A stretch of 22,071 nucleotides of DNA, from positions 1 through 22,071 of the IMG/VR virus record IMGVR_UViG_3300025133_000660; one strand, 5' to 3'. Each line of letters opens with the position of its first letter. The first letter of the stretch is position 1. The stretch comes from a virus. Positions 17,210 through 20,795 of the stretch are shown here, piece by piece. The notes below the pieces were generated by a model. The model was not told where the DNA came from and made no database searches. It worked only from the letters and a program-made list of their open reading frames with translations. Both the position numbers and the translations under genes were made by a program.

Positions 17210-18406
17210 CTAACGTATTGAGTACCAGCCTCTTTTGTTCTCTTTTAAATGGATCAATGCAACGTAACGCAAAGAATCGATTAAATGATTGAATTTATCG
17301 ACAGGAATATTAAGTTTTTTGCCGTTTTTATCCACTTGCCATTTATAATTTTTGAACTCTTTTATTAAATTTAATGATGAATTTTCAATGTATATTTTAT
17401 GCCTTTTTAATATATCAATTCCATTCTGGATTGAATCCCGACCTTTCGTTGCCGGTTTACTATTGATTCCCATACGATAAAGCTCCTCAATGCTTTTTGG
17501 TTCAGCTGAGTCGCAAATTACTTCCGATCTTTCAATAATAGGTTTTAACTTCTCTGCTACATCTTGATTCGTTAACCCTTTCTCGTACATAATCTCTTTT
17601 AAATATAAACTATCATCATGCTTATAAACACCCACAACTGCCGTAGGGTCAATAGAATAACCAAAGTCTAAGCCAAATGATATAAGTTTAGCTTTTTCCG
17701 GAATATCGTCAATCATCTTAAAGTTATTAAACACATTATCTTCACTCGATCCCTGTAACCCTAATCCATAGACTCGCCAATAGTTTTTATCAAGTTCCTT
17801 TAATCTTAATATTTCATCTTTAATGCTCTGCTCTAAAAATGGATTATCATAAAAAGTAGTACGATGGAACTCCGCATCTTTCCTTGGTATTACTTTCTCA
17901 TATATCCAATGATATTCGTCTGCCGGATTATAGTCAATTATTATTCTGCCTGTTGTTCTGAATATTAACTGTTGCCAATCTTCATAAGATAATTCGTTAG
18001 CTTCGTTAATGAATAGTAAGTCCCTCTTTCGACCTCTGACCTTCTGTGCTTGATCCAAGCTGATGAACTCGACTAAATTATCATAAAGCCAATACTCACT
18101 GCTCGATTTATTATGGTATTCCGGATCATATATATTATTGGTTCTCAGGATGTCGATAAAATCCCGCATTACCGTTGCCCTAATAGCTGGGAAAGTTTTC
18201 CGACATATCGTTATGACCTTTCCAGAATTTTGACTGCAATAAACACAAATGATCCATAAAAGAATGTTATAAGTCTTTCCGGATCTCGCACCCCCCTGTT
18301 CAATGATTATCTTTTTATCAGAATTAAGAAGATGTTTAAAAACCTTATTCGTTTGGAGTTTCGTTTGTGTCAATGATCTCAATTTTAAATGAAGTAGGAC
18401 TCCCAT
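17210..18406 (-). CDS. terL: terminase large subunit (TerL)
   Basis: 398 residues, of the PBSX / Terminase_3 type. The ATPase has a Walker A GGARSGKT at 38-45 and a Walker B RDLLFINEA at about 128-136; QKVRGRKRD before it fits the usual arginine-rich strand. The C-terminal nuclease shows the three expected acidic residues: D247 in FGLDFGYSIDPTA, D299 in VICDSAEPKSIEEL and D377 in FNHLIDSLRY. It packages concatemeric DNA through the portal. The ATG at 18406 overlaps the small subunit by 62 nt; an in-frame TTG at 18373 would cut the overlap to 29 nt. Its size is near normal for this family. Confidence 0.95.
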   Translation of the reverse strand: MGVLLHLKLRSLTQTKLQTNKVFKHLLNSDKKIIIEQGGARSGKTYNILLWIICVYCSQNSGKVITICRKTFPAIRATVMRDFIDILRTNNIYDPEYHNKSSSEYWLYDNLVEFISLDQAQKVRGRKRDLLFINEANELSYEDWQQLIFRTTGRIIIDYNPADEYHWIYEKVIPRKDAEFHRTTFYDNPFLEQSIKDEILRLKELDKNYWRVYGLGLQGSSEDNVFNNFKMIDDIPEKAKLISFGLDFGYSIDPTAVVGVYKHDDSLYLKEIMYEKGLTNQDVAEKLKPIIERSEVICDSAEPKSIEELYRMGINSKPATKGRDSIQNGIDILKRHKIYIENSSLNLIKEFKNYKWQVDKNGKKLNIPVDKFNHLIDSLRYVALIHLKENKRGWYSIR

Positions 18407-18713
18407 CAGCTCCCGTTATCTCTTGTCTTTCTACGTAACCTCTCCTCTTTCCTTTGGTCTTTAAATAGAATATTGTAGCAGTAGAATTACCATCTTTAAT
18501 CTGCTTATGTAACTGACTTTCAGCAAAGTCTAAAGCTATATCTCCAATACTATCAACTTCTTTTTTAAACTCCTCATCCTTATTATACCAATCATAAAAT
18601 GTTGATCTATTAACTCCCGTTTGTTTACAAGCAGTAGTTACCACTCCTAAAGATTTTTCCAGAGATTCAACTAACTTCTTTTTTAATATGTCCGATTTTG
18701 TAGGTTTACTCAT
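18345..18713 (-). CDS. terS: terminase small subunit (TerS)
   Basis: 122 residues. A helix-turn-helix of terminase small subunits lies at about 22-54 (LGVVTTACKQTGVNRSTFYD, WYNKDEEFKKEV), followed by a helix (DIALDFAESQLHKQIKDGN) and TATIFYLKTKGKRRGYVERQ, the usual signature next to terminases of this type (FYLKTKGKxRGY). The end, GSPTSFKIEIID, is also typical. The protein binds the packaging start site and hands the DNA to TerL, whose gene overlaps. It follows the glycosyltransferase operon by 36 nt. Confidence 0.9.
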   Translation of the reverse strand: MSKPTKSDILKKKLVESLEKSLGVVTTACKQTGVNRSTFYDWYNKDEEFKKEVDSIGDIALDFAESQLHKQIKDGNSTATIFYLKTKGKRRGYVERQEITGADGSPTSFKIEIIDTNETPNE

Positions 18714-18749: not shown

Positions 18750-19493
18750 TTAAATCCCCTTTATAGGTATTTTCAATATAGGGTTTATGTCAAAAGTTTT
18801 TTTCTTTTTACCTCTTTGCGTAGTATCATTTTTAACAATGCCTTTCCCCCATTTATTCTGTAATATTTGTAATTGTTCAACTTCTCTGTTCAATGTTCGA
18901 TAGTCTGCACATCCTCCTTTATTGCCATGATCTCTTTTAACCATGAATGTATGGTTGAATCTTAATAGTTTTCTGTATGTATTTAAGTTCTGAATTGAGT
19001 AATCGTAATCCTCTTTTAATGGTATTCTTTCATCAAATCTAAGCTCATTGTCTATAAATCCCATAAATGCGCCACTAATCGGATTTGTTAAACTAAATGG
19101 ACTGTATTCTCTGTATGATCCTTTGTCGCCAATTATATTCAAACCCCATAATCTCGCACCAAATTCTTTACAATGATTAAAGCCAAATTCTATAAACTCC
19201 TCTATGTTATCTAAATTAACTGCTTTAGGTTTATCATTTACTATCGTCCATCTTTTAAATGCCTCAATATCATCGTCTATTATAACACCTTTATCTTTAA
19301 TAAAATTTTTTAATATGTAATTCCTTACTCTCGAAATATTTCCTTGTACTTCATTTGGAATAATTTCAACGTTAACTCCTTTTTGTTTGTATTTGTCTGC
19401 TTCAAATTCAGCAACGCAATAAATTATGTCTGGTATTAATTTATGAGTTTTAAGTCCGTCACTTCTTTTGTAGCTTGGTGCAAATATTTTCAT
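18750..19493 (-). CDS. TAGT-like GT-A glycosyltransferase, second copy
   Basis: 247 residues. GT-A features: N-terminal FAPSYKR at 4-10, a GNISRVRN segment at 51-58, the metal-binding DDD at 73-75 (VIIDDDIEAF), SPFSLTNPISGAFMGF at 131-146, FDERIPLKEDYDYSIQNL with the putative catalytic E161-D162, and a Gly-rich DHGNKGG near 190. The arrangement matches the neighbouring gene at 19490-20206, so the two are tandem paralogues. It resembles TET-associated glycosyltransferases (TAGT) that modify hydroxymethyl bases in phage DNA. I saw no TET/JBP enzyme in the window. The start overlaps the first copy by 4 nt (ATGA). Acceptor and sugar are unknown. Confidence 0.75.
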   Translation of the reverse strand: MKIFAPSYKRSDGLKTHKLIPDIIYCVAEFEADKYKQKGVNVEIIPNEVQGNISRVRNYILKNFIKDKGVIIDDDIEAFKRWTIVNDKPKAVNLDNIEEFIEFGFNHCKEFGARLWGLNIIGDKGSYREYSPFSLTNPISGAFMGFIDNELRFDERIPLKEDYDYSIQNLNTYRKLLRFNHTFMVKRDHGNKGGCADYRTLNREVEQLQILQNKWGKGIVKNDTTQRGKKKKTFDINPILKIPIKGI

Positions 19494-20206
19494 GCTCCCT
19501 TTATTGGTATTTTAAATTCAAATCTTGTTCTGTTCCAGATCATTGCTTTATATCCCCATTTATTATTTATCATGGTAGCATAATGTCTTTGTTCTTTTTT
19601 ATCATAACCTATTGTACTATTATTTCCCCCGTCCTCTCCAAAGCACCTAATGCAGTATTGGTTATCCCTAATCATTCGTCTGTTATTATTCATTTTCTGC
19701 ACCCAAAATTCAACGTCTTCATTAATTCTTAGTCTTTCATCATATCTAATATTATCGTTAACATTAATTAATGCTACTTGAAAAACTCCTTTTGTTAATG
19801 AAAATGGCTGAAAATCTTTTAATTTAATATTGTCCGCTGAATAATCAAAGCCACCATAGTTAGCACCCATATCTTTTGCCATGATATAGATTCGTTCAAA
19901 ATGTTCTAAGCACTCCTCTCCAGACAATTTAATGTTTTCTTTTTTTCTTACTAAATGAATAAAATCATCATCACATACCCAGCCGTAGCCATCTGCTTCA
20001 TTTTCTTTTATTAAATCAAGTACTGCGTTTCTTTTTTTTGCTACTGATCCATCCCTTTTGTCTGGGATACTAACAACTGCATTTCCATATCTTTTTTTGT
20101 AATCTTTCTCCTGACTTTCAGGTACTACAATATGTCCGCATCCTAAATATTCGTATGTTCTAACTTTGTCGTGTCTATTATAAGATGGTATGTAGATATT
20201 ATTCAT
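19490..20206 (-). CDS. TAGT-like GT-A glycosyltransferase, first copy
   Basis: 238 residues. It carries IYIPSYNRHDKVRTYEYL at the start, GSVAKKRNAVLDL at 53-65, WVCDDDFIHL with the metal-binding DDD at 79-81, FQPFSLTKGVFQVAL at 132-146, and YDERLRINEDVEFWVQ with putative catalytic E163-D164. A final IRCFGEDGGNN mirrors the KRDHGNKGG of the second copy. The pattern fits GT-A transferases and is close to TET-associated types that glycosylate hydroxymethyl pyrimidines. The ATG overlaps the ParB-like gene by 8 nt, so the three proteins are made together. Modification of DNA is more likely than of virion proteins because of the ParB and terminase neighbours, but this is inference. Confidence 0.75.
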   Translation of the reverse strand: MNNIYIPSYNRHDKVRTYEYLGCGHIVVPESQEKDYKKRYGNAVVSIPDKRDGSVAKKRNAVLDLIKENEADGYGWVCDDDFIHLVRKKENIKLSGEECLEHFERIYIMAKDMGANYGGFDYSADNIKLKDFQPFSLTKGVFQVALINVNDNIRYDERLRINEDVEFWVQKMNNNRRMIRDNQYCIRCFGEDGGNNSTIGYDKKEQRHYATMINNKWGYKAMIWNRTRFEFKIPIKGA

Positions 20207-20795
20207 CTTTTAACTTTTTTAGATAATCAGCACCGTTAATTACTCTACCAATTCCTTTGCTCCATGGTTTGCCATTCTGTCTTTTTGAATATACGCTTTT
20301 TAATTCGAAATGAGTTTGTGCTGATAGCCAGTCTATGTCATTATCAAATAATAAAACAACATAGTTATGTGATTCATCCATGTACTCGCTAAACTCAATT
20401 TCTTGCTCCTCAATTTCTAATTTTTCATCTAAAATAGGTACATCTAATCCCCACTCTGTTAGCTTCTCTGCATCCCATTCATTTGCCAACATATCCCAAT
20501 CCCACTCGCCAAATCCAACGTTGTCTTTAATAATAAATTCTTGTTGTTGTTCTGGAGTTAGATCACTTGCTTTGATTATCGGAACTTCTTTTAATCCGGC
20601 TTTCTGACAAGCTTTTAATCTCATGTTCCCACCCAAAACAACCATGTCCTCGTTTACTACAATGGGTCTGAGTTCTAACATTTCTGGAAGTTCCTTTATT
20701 GATTCAACCAATTTTTTAAACTTTTCCCCTTTTATGTTTCTCGGGTTATTAGGATTCGTTTTAATGTCTTTAATCTTCGTTTTTATCGTCTTCAT
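20199..20795 (-). CDS. ParB/Srx-type domain protein
   Basis: 198 residues. A ParB N-terminal domain spans about residues 5-95: NPNNPRNI at 14-21, a helix KFKKLVESIKEL, RPIVVNEDMVVLGGNMRLKA with the conserved box GGNMRLKA at 55-62, and EVPIIKASDLTPEQQQEFII. A FGEWDWDMLANEW stretch follows, then a second part (SHNYVVLLFDNDIDWLSAQT) often found after such domains in phages. ParB-fold proteins in phages can be nucleases or NTP-binding adaptors and are known to accompany DNA-modifying enzymes. It heads the operon with two glycosyltransferases. It is not a plasmid partition protein, as no ParA lies next to it. Confidence 0.85.
   Translation of the reverse strand: MKTIKTKIKDIKTNPNNPRNIKGEKFKKLVESIKELPEMLELRPIVVNEDMVVLGGNMRLKACQKAGLKEVPIIKASDLTPEQQQEFIIKDNVGFGEWDWDMLANEWDAEKLTEWGLDVPILDEKLEIEEQEIEFSEYMDESHNYVVLLFDNDIDWLSAQTHFELKSVYSKRQNGKPWSKGIGRVINGADYLKKLKDE

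Follow-up and report, generated by a model that had tools for sequence, protein, structure and literature searches.

The stretch of DNA considered here (hereafter the window) is a 22,071-bp fragment from IMG/VR, the virus record IMGVR_UViG_3300025133_000660; gene absences inside it carry no weight. Its minus strand encodes, in reading order, a ParB-like protein, two glycosyltransferases that we term GTa and GTb, and the small (TerS) and large (TerL) subunits of the terminase. The first three genes form the cassette under study, spanning positions 20795-18750. The ParB-like gene (20199-20795) overlaps GTa (19490-20206) by 8 nucleotides (nt), and GTa overlaps GTb (18750-19493) by 4 nt, so that the coordinates and overlaps of the three genes beside the terminase are exactly those of the initial annotation made from the sequence alone. 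A gap of 36 nt separates GTb from TerS (18345-18713; phrog_309), which is followed by TerL (17210-18406; Terminase_3, 72.2 bits).

The assignment of the first gene to the ParB fold was confirmed by both profile and structure. The protein matched ParB_N (PF02195) at 32.3 bits against a cut-off of 26.3, and the N-domain of its structural model was most similar to 7bnr, a Myxococcus ParB solved with a CTP analogue (Z 13.3, root-mean-square deviation [rmsd] 1.4 over 90 aligned residues, model residues 2-95). Matches to solved ParB CTPase domains mostly covered residues 1-114 of the model. This N-domain, with its CTPase fold, occupies codons ~1-118 (20442-20795), and the remainder of the gene (20199-20441) encodes a linker and an exchangeable C-terminal domain with the motif NYVVLxFDNDIDWLSAQTHF...NGKPWSKGIGRV. 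The C-domain was modeled with low confidence: the predicted local distance difference test (pLDDT) fell below 50 at residues 123-134, and the predicted template modeling score (pTM) of the whole protein was 0.55. Partition ParB proteins (ParABS) carry a parS-binding helix-turn-helix domain and a C-terminal dimer domain. We surveyed related loci by profile scans of viral contigs, most of which are fragments; L-numbers denote the contig stretches recovered. Across these loci the ParB C-domain is conserved together with the glycosyltransferase, and the N-domain of the window's protein is 82% identical to that of a cassette (L205) in which ParB is paired with Mom.

Both glycosyltransferases are members of the TAGT family, a name that refers to association with TET/JBP and a family reportedly defined by Iyer in 2013. 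GTa scored 59.3 bits and GTb 44.0 bits against PF20691, each above the curated cut-off of 27.5 bits, and both matched phrog_842 (beta-glucosyl-HMC-alpha-glucosyltransferase). The initial annotation had described two paralogous, TAGT-like GT-A enzymes with SYxR, DDD and ED motifs, and the alignment of both paralogues agrees. The DDD metal motif (GTa residues 79-81, 19964-19972; GTb residues 73-75, 19269-19277) is invariant in all 58 rows. In the S-Y-x-R motif, S is found in 56, Y in 53 and R in 58 rows, and in the ED pair (GTa residues 163-164, 19715-19720; GTb residues 161-162, 19008-19013) E is conserved in 47 of 58 rows and D in every one. The AlphaFold2 model of GTb, the paralogue that was modeled, has a GT-A fold (pLDDT 88.9, pTM 0.87). 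GTa and GTb share 27% identity (E 3e-21); a recent tandem duplication was rejected, as at this identity they also fall into separate groups across phages, in a tree whose deep branches are weak and whose long branches meet. Both proteins end in a conserved PIKG-type tail (window 18753-18767 and 19493-19507; P243 in 58 and G246 in 55 of 58 rows), which may be a docking peptide for ParB.

Structural comparison says less about what these enzymes act on. Among solved structures, GTb was closest to GalNAc-T2 (Z 13.9, rmsd 4.1, 215 aligned residues), with further GT-A matches to BcsA (Z 13.6) and TarP (Z 11.8). The best named matches among viral predicted folds were TAGT-domain proteins and glycosyltransferases, including a Klebsiella phage beta-glucosyl-HMC-alpha-glucosyltransferase with a query TM of 0.80. 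The initial annotation had proposed structural matching as a test of its reading, and the outcome is ambiguous, with protein- and polysaccharide-directed enzymes among the solved matches and TAGT-type proteins among the named viral ones. We therefore did not accept fold comparison as proof of what the enzymes act on; its solved GT-A matches are protein-, polysaccharide- and teichoic-acid-directed enzymes. A sequence search of the solved structures returned no relative; weak matches to calmodulin, heparosan synthase and dUTPase were discarded as chance.

The ParB-like gene and GTb are tightly linked. We considered 80 of 148 relatives in a scan with the ParB alignment alone and 80 of 102 in a scan with the GTb alignment alone. 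GTb lay beside ParB in 77/80 loci of the former and ParB beside GTb in 75/80 of the latter, and all eight misses were contig ends. The start of GTb was at most 60 nt from the preceding gene in 63/77 and 71/75 of these pairs, respectively. GTa was present in 45/80 and 51/80 loci, and GTb followed ParB without it in 34/77 and 28/75. A scan with GTa recovered 64 loci, of which 46 had new ids. Among the new loci GTa was followed by GTb or, in L193, by a second GTa-type gene, unless the contig ended; two (L188 and L192) scored as having just one gene of GTb type downstream of ParB, and L196 starts inside a GTb-type gene. Because GTb-only loci are common and GTa lacks a second glycosyltransferase gene only at contig ends, GTb is the core enzyme and GTa an optional addition. 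This refines the two copies noted initially.

Further genes are found in some cassettes. Class I methyltransferase genes lie between ParB and GTb in L098, L103, L109 and L112, as does an FkbM methyltransferase gene in L119, with L120 judged to be alike by reading; these enzymes possibly methylate the transferred sugar. A C5-type DNA methylase gene lies between GTa and GTb in L022 (3029-3640), and L186, L193 and L194 have extra sequence in the slot. In L006, L017 and L023 the terminase is of a different type while the cassette is unchanged and the order ParB, glycosyltransferase, TerS is retained; the large terminases of these loci scored 122-127 bits against the profile of the window's TerL, far below most loci.

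Related arrangements occur in named phages. The streptococcal prophage Javan291 has ParB, one TAGT, TerS and TerL. The lytic, cultured Microbacterium phages of Quhwahvirus (cluster EC) have, as read in Smarties, a sigma factor, ParB, a glycosyltransferase and a UDP-glucose dehydrogenase. The Smarties glycosyltransferase is linked to GTb by tblastn (E 5e-6); it gave no match to the TAGT model of Pfam at a threshold of E 0.01, and it matched 56 records, every one a Microbacterium phage. The accessible portions of two papers on such phages mention the cluster EC glycosyltransferase and dehydrogenase genes and contain no claim of DNA modification (PMC7302621; PMC12614000). In Gingerbug, ParB adjoins a protein weakly matching phrog_842 (E 1e-4). 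Lactobacillus phage phiLdb has ParB and then a 168-residue gene before TerL, the same length as a TAGT-labeled phiLdb protein in the viral fold library; at this locus (L286:848-1713) the short, TAGT-length gene after ParB is followed by a small open reading frame (ORF), perhaps a split copy. The genome scan yielded a single bacterial-genome locus (L130), in a metagenome-assembled genome of Acidobacteria.

Comparison of loci revealed a constant socket, the ParB N-domain: in phage backbones that are otherwise similar, everything from approximately codon 118 of ParB through the enzyme gene is replaced as one unit. We counted swaps over 175 loci, having excluded nine unassigned loci as well as L204 and L274, whose contigs are shared with other rows; the count was also made without 16 further loci (same-contig repeats, copies of the window including L003, and L008). 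Among the 175, 335 pairs of loci with different effectors were alike on both flanks, although these pairs are not independent of one another. Their similarity ended at a median ParB codon of 118 (quartiles 115-120; 85% of pairs within 105-130) and returned past the effector, with TerS as the right border of the swapped region. Similarity covered a median share of 0.0 of the cassette in these pairs, compared to 0.98 in 1,604 same-effector pairs. Restricting the count to locus-disjoint pairs left 28 swaps at flank identities of at least 65%, 12 at 75% or more and seven at 80%; TAGT-containing disjoint pairs, counted separately, numbered 19, four and one. This count supersedes an earlier one by other criteria (600 pairs, 244 of them TAGT-TAGT). 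We rejected the N-domain tree as a swap counter: it showed 37 label changes where shuffling gave a mean of 45.2, and few of its forks were resolved, so the evidence for swapping rests on the DNA breakpoints.

Individual pairs illustrate the pattern. A methyltransferase (MTase) locus and a Mom locus (L215 and L216) are 91% identical over 3.9 kb on one side and 92% over 2.9 kb on the other. An MTase and a TAGT locus (L210 and L211) share 78% over 929 nt and 80% over 572 nt, while another such pair (L230 and L239) reaches 93% on the left and 86% on the right flank, the latter over 100 nt. Further clear swaps join two TAGT types (L239 and L249) and an MTase to Mom (L217 and L222). The window has one swap partner, a Mom locus (L224), with which it shares 74% identity over 369 nt, up to codon 119 of the L224 ParB, and 69% over 295 nt beyond the cassette. 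A 31,929-bp contig (3300031841_000591) carries two cassette alleles at its ends (L143:1-2476 and L144:9800-11929), which are 88% identical through the ParB N-domain and 95% identical again from TerS, with an unrelated ParB C-domain and glycosyltransferase between, except for one 59-nt match. This homology was not attributed to a plain overlap of contig ends, as the middle of the cassette differs, and it suggests alternative cassettes within one population. The N-domain is likewise shared between Javan291, where a TAGT follows, and Javan447, where it is fused to a DPPY MTase: identity between the two is 66% across residues 1-128 of ParB and 67% for the preceding gene.

The position of the breakpoint bears on whether ParB and the enzyme act together at all. 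ParB could instead be an independent nuclease, NTPase or partition protein that stands beside a mobile enzyme slot without cooperating with its occupant; ParB-fold domains can indeed be nickases or NTPases, judging from the available part of one report (PMC5512222). However, the breakpoint lies inside ParB, so that its C-domain moves with the enzyme, and in MTase cassettes ParB and enzyme form one polypeptide. The type of the C-domain also mostly tracks that of the enzyme. Among 37 unfused loci, 72 pairs had similar C-domains, and 57 of these pairs also agreed in effector type, a share that near-copies may inflate, against a 23% baseline of 666 pairs, while the nearest N-domain neighbor had the same effector in 14/37. 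The 15 exceptions join GTB (an unconfirmed label), TAGT and FkbM, or C5 methylase and TGT. We consider independent action of ParB very improbable.

What else occupies the slot was assessed in a scan with the ParB N-domain, from which we took the best 80 of at least 598 relatives. Fused MTases were the most frequent occupants (34 loci), assigned by a [DNSH]PP[YFWM] motif and length, with two checked and both found to be PF01555. TAGT followed with 13 loci and Mom with 11, two of the latter identified by PF25680 (E 3e-34 and 8e-50) and the others by BLASTP to those two. The remaining assignments were ABC-GNAT proteins (six, one checked), C5 methylases (two, one checked as PF00145), TGT/DpdA-like proteins (two, one by phrog_887 and the copy in L247 by BLASTP, without a Pfam hit), an L229-type gene (two, with no Pfam hit, a weak match to a PHROG of unknown function and a "GTB" label given from its look only) and FkbM (one, PF05050); nine loci received no effector class. 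The ABC-GNAT protein, which joins an ABC-ATPase and a GNAT domain and follows ParB (L212:3538-4668, which matches phrog_11143 of unknown function, and L228:4483-5550), is a possible uncharacterized DNA-modifying enzyme. Slot genes after ParB without a Pfam hit (L229:2162-3064, L235:707-1720 and L257:4581-5375) are candidates for new DNA-modifying enzymes.

One cassette (L247:4001-8043) consists of ParB, a small ORF, the TGT-like gene, PTPS (QueD-type), radical SAM and GTP cyclohydrolase I, and occupies the ParB-TerS slot that holds Mom in a kindred phage (L223). Since PTPS, radical SAM and GTP cyclohydrolase I lie between ParB and TerS, at least that cassette carries the genes for its precursor along with it. 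In TAGT cassettes of the window's kind, ParB and glycosyltransferases are the only genes. MTases, Mom and TGT/DpdA-like enzymes are all known to modify DNA bases, and MTase and Mom cassettes need no hydroxymethylated precursor.

Kindred phages place DNA MTases, Mom or a 7-deazaguanine-type transferase in this slot, and the TAGT therefore most likely acts on DNA as well. The window's cassette has ParB_N upstream of the enzyme and shares both its slot and its N-domain with MTase and Mom cassettes, as would be expected of a ParB_N-linked DNA-modification cassette. A target other than DNA, such as a virion or terminase protein or a host surface glycan modified in superinfection exclusion, would be compatible with GalNAc-T2 and BcsA as the top solved structures, with TarP lower, and with the sugar-methyltransferase-like genes of some cassettes; modification of lipopolysaccharide is also named as an option for a flavophage glycosyltransferase in the portion of PMC11946311 that is accessible. 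Such a target accords poorly with a ParB-fold protein as the constant partner, or with block exchange against DNA MTases, Mom and 7-deazaguanine-type genes in otherwise similar backbones, and we regard it as quite improbable.

If the acceptor is DNA, the classical route would have the TAGTs add sugar to pyrimidines that are hydroxymethylated, or hydroxylated in some other way, through the action of a TET/JBP or thymidylate-synthase-type enzyme whose gene lies at another site of the genome or belongs to a host or prophage. There is precedent in other TAGT-bearing phages: the TAGT of S16 adjoins dCMP hydroxymethylase and a beta-glucosyltransferase, that of ctUhy936 adjoins a 'pyrimidine hmase', and the T6-type TAGT works on such DNA, according to the accessible text of PMC13216743. 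We searched 32 records of kindred phages (25 plus 7, the window not among them) for PF00303, the thymidylate-synthase-type hydroxymethylase. Two were complete genomes (Javan291 and Smarties) and the others IMG/VR contigs, which may be fragments; ParB was visible in 31, the L053 contig starting inside GTa. S16 and ctUhy936 served as positive controls and were both detected, while PF00303 was found in 0/32 of the kindred records. PF12851 (TET/JBP) was found in 0/25 and 0/10 records, with a profile that matched no control either. Pfam scans of 36 of 67 Javan291 features (no thymidylate synthase or TET/JBP in 25 of 28 families) and of 52 of 100 Smarties features (none among the families shown) gave no sign of such an enzyme. 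By this PF00303 search, the phage dCMP hydroxymethylase that marks the T-even hydroxymethylcytosine (hmC) system was not found in these relatives. Similar backbones bear MTase or Mom cassettes. We therefore consider the classical route unlikely. The initial annotation had proposed that these enzymes add sugars to hydroxymethylated bases; DNA glycosylation is strongly favored by the slot-mates, whereas a hydroxymethyl-base substrate is unsupported by the PF00303 result. A TET enzyme, a hydroxylase that escaped recognition or a host-made acceptor would be compatible with these searches.

Taking these observations together, we think it probable that the locus encodes an exchangeable, self-contained phage DNA-modification cassette, in which glycosyltransferases targeted by ParB shield DNA from restriction. 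The ParB N-domain, with its CTPase-type fold, would load on or scan DNA, perhaps as a clamp, and the enzyme-matched C-domain would hold or aim the glycosyltransferase. GTb could then put a first sugar on phage DNA after replication, and GTa, where present, might add a second sugar or modify a second site. The sugar would protect the DNA from host restriction ahead of packaging by the adjacent terminase. A more specific proposal, which we offer tentatively and consider less likely than its alternatives combined, is that ParB-linked TAGTs glycosylate a canonical base directly, without a hydroxylated precursor, the N-domain acting as a general loading socket for any DNA-modifying enzyme (MTase, Mom, deazaguanine transferase or glycosyltransferase), each joined to it through its own adaptor C-domain.

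Several observations weigh against the DNA-modification cassette. The searches yielded no hydroxylase that would account for a nucleophile on DNA. The solved structures that best match GTb are those of enzymes directed at protein, cellulose or teichoic acid, and the FkbM-type and class I methyltransferases near some ParB-GTb pairs would fit sugar methylation of any glycan. As for the exchange, the sole TAGT swap with both flanks at 80% or more is the one with the 100-nt right flank, and the terminases of Javan291 and Javan447 are only distantly alike, so that these two share a socket without representing a clean swap. Effectors differ in 15 of the 72 pairs with similar C-domains, and the MTase labels, except for the two Pfam-checked cases, derive from motif and length.

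The nearest known systems each share part of this arrangement. The T2/T6 beta-glucosyl-HMC-alpha-glucosyltransferase has PF20691 and a GT-A fold in common with the enzymes described here, and the T-even enzyme acts on phage DNA, as far as the available text of two sources indicates (PMC13216743; PMC13390438, where a T6-like TAGT is described). The former source, in the same portion, has the T2/T6 TAGT glucosylating already glucosylated hmC. The T-even system differs in that its enzyme adds a second sugar and that the T-even-type gene of S16 neighbors those for dCMP hydroxymethylase and a beta-glucosyltransferase, whereas here the enzymes are partnered with ParB next to TerS and the kindred records yielded no hydroxymethylase. 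ParB_N-DNA methyltransferase fusions have the same N-domain and the same pre-terminase slot, and exchange homologously with the TAGT cassette; here, by contrast, the effector is a separate glycosyltransferase gene with a different ParB C-domain. ParBc fused to DNA methyltransferases has been reported, its function being given as unknown in the part of that report available (PMC12783734). Dpd systems likewise combine a ParB-fold protein with a DNA-modifying enzyme, DpdB being a ParB-like ATPase paired with DpdA in the accessible portion of PMC12839542, and a TGT-like cassette occupies the same slot in L247. Their chemistry and their ParB-fold protein are different. Nicking and NTPase activity have both been described for ParB-type domains, in what is accessible of PMC5512222.

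Swapping in a slot of this kind has a partial precedent. In a cryoconite Mu-like phage, variable MTases and an acetyltransferase lie between integrase and TerL, and a figure labels a ParB gene (PMC7468147); the available portion of that study shows no TAGT in the slot, no ParB-internal breakpoint and no unit of C-domain and enzyme. We found no report of the ParB-TAGT pair, the breakpoint within ParB or the coupled C-domain in the literature, most subscription journals lying outside the search and several of the sources being accessible in part. What is new here is the ParB N-domain as a constant socket, with exchange of the ParB C-domain and the enzyme as a block.

These results may give context to some of the solitary phage TAGTs. 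Such homologues occur in 288/753 phage genomes and are termed potential novel transferases in the accessible part of PMC13216743; our loci place some TAGTs in a ParB-coupled slot common to DNA modifiers. This context points to a DNA target, perhaps with sugar transfer that does without a hydroxymethylated base, and it also bears on the role of ParB in the ParB-methyltransferase fusions. In the cultured Microbacterium cluster EC phages, the chemistry would be readable by mass spectrometry. The possibility that sugar is passed to an acceptor that is unmodified or made by the host can now be tested.

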